Positions 28,546 through 31,728 of a stretch of 52,079 nucleotides of DNA are shown here, piece after piece. Below the pieces are notes generated by a model, which saw nothing but the letters and a program-made list of their open reading frames with translations, was not told the DNA's origin and made no database searches. The translations under genes were made by a program, and so were the position numbers. Each line of letters begins with the position of its first letter. Positions within the stretch are counted from its first letter, which is position 1. Source of the DNA: Cyanobacteria bacterium M_DeepCast_200m_mx_001 (GTDB lineage: Bacteria; Cyanobacteriota; Cyanobacteriia; PCC-6307; Cyanobiaceae); the NCBI GenBank assembly GCA_016882415.1, contig VGQL01000002.1:1-52079 (forward strand). Reading direction: 5' to 3'.

Positions 28546-29214
28546 TCAGCCTACGAAGCCTGAGCCGCTCAGGCCACACAGACGGTCCCCGGGATCCCCC
28601 AGACCCGGCAGGATCCGCTGCTCCGGGTCCAGCTCCGCATCAATGCAGCCGGTGTAGAGGGTCAGGTCGCCGTAGCGCTCCCCCAGGCGCTTCAGCCCCG
28701 GGCTGGAGGCCACGCAGGTGATCACCCGGACCCGCACCCCCTGCACCCCGCGGCGTTCCAACTGCTCCAGCACATGCAACAGGCGGGAGCCGGTGGCCAC
28801 CTGGGGGGCGAACACCAGCACCCCGGCCCGGTCGGGGATGCTGCCGGGCAGGCCGTTGAAGGGGCTGCTCACGGTTCCCGTGGCGGTTTGCTCCAGGGCC
28901 ATCGGCGCCAGGGCGGCATGGGGTAACACCGAGCGGGCCCCCTCCCACAACCCCAGGCCCCCACGGAGCAGGGGCACCGCCAGCAGCGGCACCGAGGCAT
29001 CCACCACCGTGCCCTCGGTGGGGGCGAGTGGGGTCTGCACGGCCACCCGTTGGTAGGGGATCCAGTCGCGCAGGGCCTCGTACGTGAGCCAGCGCCCCAG
29101 TTCGGCCATGGCGGTGCCAAAGAGGGCGGATGGGGTGTCCTGATCGCGCAGCAGGGTGAGCCAGTGGCCAATCAGGGGATGGGGTGGCACCACCACGCGC
29201 AGGGCTTTGCTCAT
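28546..29214 (-). CDS. upp: Uracil phosphoribosyltransferase-like protein
   Basis: UPRT salvages uracil to UMP with PRPP. From ATG 29214 it has 222 residues. Family features are VVVPPHPLIGHWLTLLRD at the N-terminus, AELGRWLTYEALRDW, VPLLRGGLGLWEGARSVLPHA and the uracil-binding C-terminus ILPGLGDPGDRLCG. The PRPP loop, usually DPMLATGGSA, here reads APQVATGSRLLHV, lacking the acidic residue and the second Gly of the pair. That makes catalytic activity less certain. An alternative view is a diverged regulator or an inactive paralogue. Confidence 0.8.
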   Translation of the reverse strand: MSKALRVVVPPHPLIGHWLTLLRDQDTPSALFGTAMAELGRWLTYEALRDWIPYQRVAVQTPLAPTEGTVVDASVPLLAVPLLRGGLGLWEGARSVLPHAALAPMALEQTATGTVSSPFNGLPGSIPDRAGVLVFAPQVATGSRLLHVLEQLERRGVQGVRVRVITCVASSPGLKRLGERYGDLTLYTGCIDAELDPEQRILPGLGDPGDRLCGLSGSGFVG

Positions 29215-29270
29215 CGGTCGCGCTGGGGCCGCCGCCTGCAATAACTTGAGCGCCCCAAGCTAGTGGTGCC

Positions 29271-29822
29271 GTGGAACCCTTCCCCCTGCCGCGAAGGCTG
29301 CTGAGCGGCCTCGCCCGTGGCGGATGTGCCCTGGCGTCACTGCTGCTGCCGTTGCTGCTGCCTCTGCTGCTGCTGGCCTGGGCGCCGCTGCCGGTGGAGG
29401 CGATCACCGCACCGGAATTGCGCGGCGGGCGCAGCCTGCAGGATCTGCAACCCGACATGCACGGCCGCAATCTGCAGCAACAGGAATTTCTCAAGGCCTC
29501 CCTGGAGGGGTTCGACCTCAGCGACACGGATCTGCGCGGGGCCGTGTTCAACACCGCCAACCTTCAAAACGCCAACCTGCGCGGCGCTGATCTCGAGGAT
29601 GCCGTGGCCTTCGCCAGCCGCTTCGATGGTGCCGACCTCAGCGGCGCCGTGCTGCGCAACGCCATGTTGATGAACAGCAAGTTCACCGCCGCGCTGATCG
29701 AGGGGGCGGATTTCACCGACGCGGTGCTGGATCTACCCCAGCAGAAGGCCCTCTGCGGCCGCGCCTCCGGCACCAACCCCCGCACCGGGGTGGACACCCG
29801 TGACAGCCTCGCCTGCCGTTAG
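29271..29822 (+). CDS. Exported pentapeptide-repeat protein
   Basis: The 183-residue protein begins at GTG 29271 with a long hydrophobic signal sequence (ALASLLLPLLLPLLLLAWAPLPVEA, residues about 20-44), so it is exported, probably to the thylakoid lumen. Two runs of A(D/N)LXX pentapeptides follow: FDLSDTDLRGAVFNTANLQN with ANLRGADLEDA, then ADLSGAVLRNAML. They form a right-handed beta-helix. The C-terminus carries two Cys (ALCGRASGTN and the terminal SLACR) that could form a disulfide. Cyanobacterial lumenal homologues exist, but no function is assigned. Its stop lies about 25 bases before the cobalamin riboswitch. Confidence 0.85.
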   Translation: MEPFPLPRRLLSGLARGGCALASLLLPLLLPLLLLAWAPLPVEAITAPELRGGRSLQDLQPDMHGRNLQQQEFLKASLEGFDLSDTDLRGAVFNTANLQNANLRGADLEDAVAFASRFDGADLSGAVLRNAMLMNSKFTAALIEGADFTDAVLDLPQQKALCGRASGTNPRTGVDTRDSLACR

Positions 29823-29846
29823 GGCGGCTCCGGTGGGGACGGCCTA

Positions 29847-29980
29847 CATTGCAGGTGTCCGGTTCCCCGGGGGATCAGCCCAGGGAGGTAACGGGGAAAG
29901 TCCGGTGGAAAACCGGCGCTGTCCCGCAGCTGTGAAGGGTGGTTCGCCTTCGGCGACAGCCCCAGCCAGAACGCCCGCCG
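29847..29980 (+). ncRNA. Cobalamin (B12) riboswitch
   Basis: The conserved core is directly readable: GGGGAAAGTCCGGTGGAAAA (29893-29912), then CGCTGTCCCGCAGCTGTGAA (29917-29936), a variant of the B12 box, followed by AGCCAGAACGCCCGCC closing the core. It lies 47 bases before the hupE ATG, so the expression platform must involve the hupE translation start or a short stem in between. Translational control is the likelier mode (inference). Families under this switch usually import cobalt or corrinoids or make B12. Confidence 0.93.
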
Positions 29981-30026
29981 GCGCTGACCAAACCCTTCAA
30001 TCCCCTGGCGCGGACCAGGCCTCCGG

Positions 30027-30632
30027 ATGACCCAACGCCCCACCTGGCTGCTGCCCGTCAGCGCCGCCGGCCTGCTGCTGCTCTCCGCGGCTCCGGCATC
30101 CGCCCACCACCTGATGGAGTTGTTCCATCAGCAGCAACCCACCCCCCTGGCGGGGCTGCTCAGTGGCCTGGGCCACCCCCTGCTGGGTCCGGACCACCTG
30201 CTCTTCCTGCTGGCCCTGGCCCTGGTGGGTCTGCAGCGCTCCAGCCGTTGGATGCTGGGTCTGTTGGCTGTTGGATTGCTGGGCACCCTCCTGGGCCTGC
30301 TCACCCCCCAGCTGCCCGCCGCCGAGCTGTTGGTGGCCCTCACCCTCGTGGTGGAGGGGCTGGTGGTGATCGGCCGGCTGCCCGCCCCCCTGTTGGTGCC
30401 CTGCTTCGCCCTCCACGGCTACGTGTTGAGCGCCGCCGTGGTGGGTTGGGACACCGGTTCGGTCGGTGCCTATCTGGTGGGTCTGTTGCTGAGCCAGGGG
30501 GCCCTGCTGCTGCTCTCCCTGGGGCTGTTGCGTCGCACCGCCGCCGCCCTGGCCCCCACGACCCGCACCCTGTTGGCCGGAGGCCTGATGGGCATCGGCG
30601 CGGCCTTCGGCTGGTCGTTGCTCGTTCCCTAG
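30027..30632 (+). CDS. hupE: HupE/UreJ-family cobalt (or nickel) transporter
   Basis: A 201-residue membrane protein with a cleavable signal (LLPVSAAGLLLLSAAPASA) followed by HHLMELF. The family motif HPxxGxDH appears as HPLLGPDHLLFLLALALVGL near residue 50. About six membrane helices follow. HupE proteins are secondary metal carriers for Ni2+ or Co2+. Placement right behind a cobalamin riboswitch points to cobalt uptake for B12 rather than nickel for hydrogenase or urease, and no such genes are nearby. It is followed 13 bases later by a CobW-type GTPase. Confidence 0.9.
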   Translation: MTQRPTWLLPVSAAGLLLLSAAPASAHHLMELFHQQQPTPLAGLLSGLGHPLLGPDHLLFLLALALVGLQRSSRWMLGLLAVGLLGTLLGLLTPQLPAAELLVALTLVVEGLVVIGRLPAPLLVPCFALHGYVLSAAVVGWDTGSVGAYLVGLLLSQGALLLLSLGLLRRTAAALAPTTRTLLAGGLMGIGAAFGWSLLVP

Positions 30633-30645
30633 ATCCCCGTCCCCC

Positions 30646-31728
30646 GTGACTCCCTTCTCCGCTGGCCGCGTGCCGGTCACCGTGGTGACCGGCTTCCTCG
30701 GTGCCGGCAAATCCACCCTGCTGCGTCAGCTGCTGATCAGCAGCGGCCTGCGCTTGGCCGTGCTGGTGAACGAATTCGGGGAGGTGGGCATTGACGGCGA
30801 GCTGATCCGCAGCTGCCGCGTCTGCCCCGAGGATTCCCCCGAGGACTCCCCAGCCCCCGTGGTGGAGCTGGCCAACGGCTGCCTCTGCTGCACCGTGCAG
30901 GACGAATTCCTGCCCACCATGCAGCTGCTGCTGGAGCGGGCCCATCAGCTCGACGGCATCGTGGTGGAGACCAGCGGTCTGGCCCTGCCCGTGCCCCTGG
31001 TGCAGGCGTTCCAGTGGCCCGAGATCCGCACCCGCACCCGGGTGACCGGCGTGGTGACCGTGGTGGATGGTGAAGCCCTCGCCCAGGGCAGTGTGGTCGG
31101 GGATCCTGCTGCCCTTGAGGCCCAACGGTTGGCGGACCCCAGCCTGGACCATCTCAATGACCTGGAATCCCTCTTCGCCGACCAACTGGAGGCGGCGGAT
31201 CTGGTGTTGCTGAGCCGGGCTGATCGGCTGGAGATGTCGGTGCTGGAGAGCCTCAAGTCACGGCTCGCCGACCAGTTGCGGCCGGGGGTGGCGGTGCTGC
31301 CGATGGAACGGGGCCAGGTGCCCGCTGCCCTGCTGTTCGGTCTGGAGCGCCCCGATGGCGATCACCACCCGGGCCACCACGAACACGATCACGACGACCA
31401 TCACCACCACCATGACCACACCCATGTGGCGATGCAGTCGGCGGTGCTGCACTGGCCCGGCCCCCTGCAGCGCGAGGCGCTGGAGCGGTTGCTCCCCCAG
31501 TTGATCCAGGACCACCAGCTCCTGCGCCTGAAGGGTCGGGCCTGGTTGCCGGGCAAGCCCCACCCCCTGCAGATTCAGGCGGTGGGCCCCCGACTCGAGT
31601 GCTGGTTTGATCCGGTGACCCGCGCTGACGGCGACCCTGACCAGGGGCTGCAGTTGGTGGCCCTGGGGCTGGATGTGCCGGCCCAGACCCTCCAGGAGCA
31701 ACTGCAGCAGGCCCTAATCCAGGGGTAG
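30646..31728 (+). CDS. cobW: CobW-type G3E GTPase, putative cobalt chaperone
   Basis: A 360-residue metallochaperone of the COG0523 family. Visible motifs are Walker A GFLGAGKSTLL (near residue 15), LVNEFGEVGIDGE, the metal-binding CxCC in ANGCLCCTVQDEF, and VETSGLALP. The guanine-specificity motif is probably at LSRADRL. Residues about 239-260 (31360-31425) hold 13 His in 22, a metal-storage loop between the GTPase and CobW-C domains. GTG 30646 starts 13 bases after hupE, so the pair is one transcription unit under the B12 riboswitch. That context favours cobalt over zinc (inference). Confidence 0.92.
   Translation: MTPFSAGRVPVTVVTGFLGAGKSTLLRQLLISSGLRLAVLVNEFGEVGIDGELIRSCRVCPEDSPEDSPAPVVELANGCLCCTVQDEFLPTMQLLLERAHQLDGIVVETSGLALPVPLVQAFQWPEIRTRTRVTGVVTVVDGEALAQGSVVGDPAALEAQRLADPSLDHLNDLESLFADQLEAADLVLLSRADRLEMSVLESLKSRLADQLRPGVAVLPMERGQVPAALLFGLERPDGDHHPGHHEHDHDDHHHHHDHTHVAMQSAVLHWPGPLQREALERLLPQLIQDHQLLRLKGRAWLPGKPHPLQIQAVGPRLECWFDPVTRADGDPDQGLQLVALGLDVPAQTLQEQLQQALIQG

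Follow-up and report, generated by a model that had tools for sequence, protein, structure and literature searches.

A cobalamin riboswitch with a covarying P13/L13 hairpin upstream of hupE-cobW, a predicted cobalt import and delivery unit of picocyanobacteria

Introduction

HupE/UreJ permeases are widely used in cyanobacteria, where they form separate nickel and cobalt branches (Zhang 2009, PMC2667541). A cobalt role for marine cyanobacterial HupE proteins under a B12 riboswitch was predicted by Rodionov 2003 and is taken up in later reviews (cited here through PMC4284471 and PMC7689651). In Synechocystis PCC 6803, either cobalt or methionine cures the defect of a hupE (slr2135) mutant (PMC4284471, PMC7689651). 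CobW is established in other bacteria as the supplier of Co(II) to CobNST (PMC7689651), and the neighbouring locus numbers of a UreJ-HupE (AM1_5965) and a CobW (AM1_5964) in Acaryochloris point to the same pair of genes elsewhere (PMC11633204). Our literature search found no paper on a riboswitch-hupE-cobW unit in cyanobacteria as such, but cyanobacterial HupE under a B12 switch has precedents, which the initial annotation of the DNA did not mention.

Here, we describe such a unit in a stretch of 52,079 nt (the window) from a picocyanobacterial genome. As in the marine loci of Rodionov 2003, at least as the citing papers present them, a cobalamin riboswitch lies upstream of a HupE/UreJ permease to which cobalt transport is assigned. 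The locus differs from the marine HupE loci, in most of which (Synechococcus) no cobW follows, in having cobW after hupE and in its UPRT-pentapeptide-purS neighbourhood. Synechocystis slr2135 likewise encodes a cyanobacterial HupE; it is known from mutant work, our locus from its sequence. We contribute a tally of riboswitch targets across the genus and evidence from covariation for the P13/L13 expression platform.

Results

Riboswitch aptamer and layout of the locus

The leader of hupE contains a full-length match to the cobalamin riboswitch family RF00174 (model positions 1 to 189), which scored 54.1 bits (E = 9e-11) against a gathering score of 31.5 bits (Table 1). This covariance-model search confirmed the initial annotation of the DNA, which had read a cobalamin riboswitch upstream of hupE from the letters alone. 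The distances given there, 47 nt from the end of the B12-box to the hupE ATG and 13 nt from the hupE stop to the cobW GTG, are exact. In addition to the full-model score, the leader has the features expected of a family member, namely an L5 that equals the published consensus UCCCG and a P13 hairpin downstream of the aptamer. At L5, TGTCCCGC is invariant in the aligned leaders of the genus and is retained in the wider set. Given the E-value and the presence of the riboswitch in 24 of the 25 genomes of the genus, a chance match is excluded. The home genome, a partial assembly (62.9% complete), contains a single RF00174 site. Elsewhere in the window, we noted a Met-type tRNA gene (anticodon CAU).

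Table 1. Features of the hupE-cobW locus and its surroundings, in window coordinates
Feature	Coordinates	Strand	Basis
UPRTase-family protein	28546..29241		below TIGR01091 upp cut-off
Pentapeptide-repeat protein	29271..29822		
Cobalamin riboswitch aptamer (RF00174)	29842..29996	+	cmscan
L5 UCCCG, candidate kissing-loop partner	29922..29926	+	sequence reading; published L5 consensus UCCCG (PMC10653944)
B12-box AGCCAGAACGCCCGCC	29964..29979	+	sequence reading, RF00174 alignment
P13/L13 expression-platform hairpin CCTGG-CGCGGA-CCAGG (L13, 30009-30014)	30004..30019	+	conserved, covarying in relatives
hupE, predicted cobalt permease, 201 aa	30027..30632	+	PF04955
cobW, predicted Co(II) metallochaperone GTPase, 360 aa, GTG start	30646..31728	+	TIGR02475, PF02492, PF07683
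tRNA gene, CAU anticodon	34323..34396	-	RF00005 alignment

Riboswitch targets within the genus

In total, we detected 46 RF00174 sites in the genus. When these sites were joined with the HupE matches, 44 of the 46 had a hupE gene on their own strand no more than 300 nt downstream; counted by gene, 44 of the 53 HupE matches in the genus had a riboswitch so placed. Nearly all hupE1 loci of the genus keep one succession, from UPRT through the pentapeptide protein and the riboswitch to hupE and cobW, and both the UPRTase-family and the pentapeptide-repeat protein are conserved neighbours of the unit in many picocyanobacteria.

The searches also returned other arrangements. In L118:1677-5424, and likewise in L015, L025, L028, and L030, a second cobalamin riboswitch lies between a second COG0523 GTPase and a second HupE; this GTPase scores below the CobW cut-off, and a Fur-family regulator lies alongside. 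With ZnuA, an ABC ATPase, and also an OprB/SLH porin nearby, the second-HupE locus of L118 looks like a zinc-uptake locus. A cobalamin riboswitch at L118:1677-1822 directly precedes the OprB/SLH porin gene, the ATG of which follows L13 by three bases, making the porin a candidate for a B12-controlled channel of the outer membrane. A weak cobalamin riboswitch at L114:1349-1495 (33.6 bits) has a P13/L13-like hairpin, CTCGG-CGAGGA-CCGAG, but the 300 nt downstream of it contain no HupE. At L005:1655-2281, a HupE of a third type that is also preceded by a riboswitch carries an in-frame stop after nine codons, and the open reading frame that follows resembles a ZIP-type transporter by eye; in the HupE query alignment, the L005 sequence was joined by hand across this stop and used as a search seed only.

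Conservation in a wider set of cyanobacteria

Among 80 HupE loci from named genomes, the riboswitch core was found in 75 by pattern, a sample of which was checked with the covariance model, and in two more by the covariance model itself. Three Prochlorococcus hupE loci (L079, L080, and L096) had no cobalamin riboswitch reaching the gathering score. Of the 80 loci, 47 have a cobW gene directly after hupE. The initial annotation had proposed a search for the riboswitch-hupE-cobW order in other Synechococcus and Cyanobium genomes, and this search found it: the 47 loci come from Vulcanococcus, Cyanobium, the WH5701-like lineage, and a small number of further Synechococcus lineages (e.g., TMED19), and they share the UPRT-pentapeptide-purS neighbourhood. 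The downstream cobW is missing from most marine Synechococcus, WH7803 included, and from every Prochlorococcus locus examined. An even sample of other cyanobacteria yielded five further HupE loci with a riboswitch; the riboswitch-hupE-cobW order is present in L124 and L126, from two other cyanobacterial families, with a long gap of about 650 nt between riboswitch and hupE in L126. In L055:3480-3854, two cobalamin riboswitches stand back to back in opposite orientation, and hupE lies downstream of one of them.

A covarying hairpin between the aptamer and the start codon

The hairpin CCTGG-CGCGGA-CCAGG between the aptamer and the hupE start codon is the P13/L13 expression platform. Folding of the single leader sequence gave no excess stability (z = -0.95) and did not recover this hairpin; we relied on comparative covariation instead. 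In 82 leaders, of which 54 were distinct, the three loop-adjacent pairs of P13 are always complementary, two of them while varying between G-C and A-U or between C-G and U-A, and the fourth pair is formed in 83%. A set of 31 distinct sequences had 96.8% of its cells paired and 27 cells changed on both sides, compared to a shuffled mean of 8.1. The covariation score was 0.606 (shuffled, 0.268), and 0 of 500 shuffles scored as high, counts that are not probabilities because the sequences are related. Sliding the partner by one base abolished the signal.

The loop itself reads CG[A/C/T]GGA in the leaders, with the single exception of CTCGGA. The distance from L13 to the ATG is 11 to 13 nt in the hupE1 and hupE2 genes fetched from the genus and 12 nt at the home locus. 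The usual L13 of marine picocyanobacteria is CGAGGA, with a start codon approximately 6 to 10 nt downstream, so that the loop appears to be the Shine-Dalgarno sequence (GAGGA) itself. In other cyanobacterial families, the equivalent of L13 is CTGCGAGGTACAG or similar, mostly directly before the start. L5 (UCCCG) can pair with L13 as U-A, C-G, C-G, bulge, C-G, G-C, with one bulged base. Because L5 does not vary, covariation is uninformative for this contact, and we infer a kissing interaction from complementarity; kissing loops with a bulge are on record in env8HyCbl and in one other corrinoid riboswitch (PMC10653944). As kissing partner, the loop of the GGUGcaAauCC stem was considered and replaced by the published definition of L5 as UCCCG (PMC10653944).

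Mode of control

Like the translational riboswitches env8HyCbl and E. coli btuB (PMC10653944), the present platform has a P13 near the start codon, which a candidate L5-L13 kissing contact would stabilise; it differs from them in its hairpin sequence and in the weak Shine-Dalgarno core (GGA) carried by L13. Given the covarying P13, its nearly fixed spacing directly before the start codon, and the lack of a terminator-like site in window 29780-30700, translational repression by a ligand-stabilised P13 is the best reading of the mechanism. The initial annotation had also favoured translational control, from the short distance to the hupE start; its conclusion stands on this other evidence, the distance alone being a weak argument. 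With GCGGA in L13 of the home lineage and the ATG 12 nt away, direct Shine-Dalgarno sequestration would be weaker than in the marine relatives. In a lineage in which the core is only GGA, the hairpin may act more by blocking ribosome loading than by direct masking.

With the same riboswitch and genes, control could instead lie mainly in early termination of transcription or in decay of the message, and not in the access of ribosomes. Some cobalamin riboswitches act on transcription (PMC10653944), termination has been postulated in PCC 7002, and an Anabaena cobalamin riboswitch produces large changes at the mRNA level (PMC10878165). However, the lack of a terminator-like site around the leader and a start codon that directly follows P13 at nearly the same spacing in dozens of loci make predominantly transcriptional control unlikely. 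Under translational repression, effects on mRNA at the home locus are also possible.

Pathway context and ligand

We surveyed the corrinoid pathway by family searches in the 25 genomes of the genus. Matches to the cobaltochelatase CobN occurred in all 25 (23 above the cut-off; 1634 bits in the home genome), and MetH was found in 23. The same searches detected CbiM, the ECF cobalt/nickel component, in 0 of 25 genomes, MetE in 0 of 25, and BluB above its cut-off in 0 of 25. On contig C6 of the home genome, metH and cobN adjoin. Because BluB was not found, adenosyl-pseudocobalamin is the likely natural ligand, in keeping with the mention of pseudocobalamin in the initial annotation; corrinoid riboswitches respond to several corrinoids (PMC9600662). 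Because no MetE was found, the lineage probably needs a corrinoid for methionine. Pseudocobalamin is most likely the corrinoid that the organism makes, and its methionine synthesis appears to depend on this cofactor; the gene set fits cobalt import for pseudocobalamin that is used by MetH.

Identity and metal of HupE and CobW

Curated family models bear out the identities proposed for both proteins, a HupE transporter and a CobW GTPase. HupE matched PF04955 with 67.2 bits (cut-off, 23), has the signature HPxxGxDH as HPLLGPDH at residues 50 to 57 (from the alignment), and has a signal-like N terminus. CobW matched the NCBIfam CobW equivalog TIGR02475 with 347.8 bits (cut-off, 332.1) and comprises the domains PF02492 and PF07683; its translation contains the P-loop GFLGAGKS, a CxCC motif (as GCLCC), and a His/Asp-rich stretch.

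The home CobW thus shares with CobN-associated CobW (TIGR02475; PMC7689651) a score above the cut-off, the CxCC motif, the His/Asp-rich region, and a CobN encoded in the same genome; it differs in that its gene adjoins an importer gene rather than cobN, and its role is predicted. Given the functional diversity of COG0523 proteins (PMC7689651) and a score that exceeds the CobW cut-off modestly, the protein might be a zinc or general metallochaperone that sits in the operon by happenstance. We consider this quite improbable, since the equivalog cut-off is passed while the ZigA model falls far under its own, CobN is present throughout the genus, and hupE is followed by a high-scoring CobW (496 bits) in another family.

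For HupE, the riboswitch, the distribution of CobN and CbiM in the genus, and the Synechocystis genetics support import of cobalt rather than nickel, as the initial annotation had supposed. Permeases of the HupE/UreJ type in hydrogenase or urease clusters are regarded as nickel permeases (PMC4284471), but it is very improbable that this HupE mainly imports nickel (e.g., for urease) under an incidental B12 switch, given a riboswitch kept upstream of HupE both within the genus and outside it, the downstream CobW, the rescue of Synechocystis mutants by cobalt or methionine, and the absence of the CbiM alternative from the genus by family search.

Discussion

The aptamer, the gene identities, the conserved and covarying P13/L13 hairpin, the conservation of gene order, and the pathway context are computational observations. 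The hupE-cobW pair under a B12 switch is real, conserved, functional-looking, and ordinary in kind. On the evidence of sequence comparison, a corrinoid-sensing (B12-type) riboswitch in the hupE-cobW 5' leader very probably mediates a corrinoid-triggered translational shut-off of cobalt import and delivery. In the proposed mechanism, a corrinoid cofactor, most likely adenosyl-pseudocobalamin, would bind the aptamer, and L5 (UCCCG) of the ligand-bound aptamer would kiss L13 (CG(C)GGA, with one bulged base). This contact would stabilise the short P13 hairpin directly before the hupE start and block ribosome loading. At high corrinoid, HupE, and with it Co2+ import, would be lowered; CobW, presumably co-transcribed and predicted to deliver Co2+ to CobN, would be lowered too, through translational coupling or message decay. 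When the cofactor is short, the hairpin would open and cobalt import would resume.

More tentatively, the nearly exclusive placement of B12 riboswitches upstream of HupE may mean that a corrinoid is the main gauge of cobalt in the genus; the switch would also reach the second HupE of the zinc-uptake-like loci in genus-mates, which might tie zinc and cobalt supply together.

The covarying P13/L13 hairpin is a concrete, mutable element with which translational control can be probed. A cobalt, not nickel, assignment is supported for a protein that is usually annotated as a nickel permease and, in a picocyanobacterial lineage without detected MetE, cobalt import is tied to corrinoid sensing.
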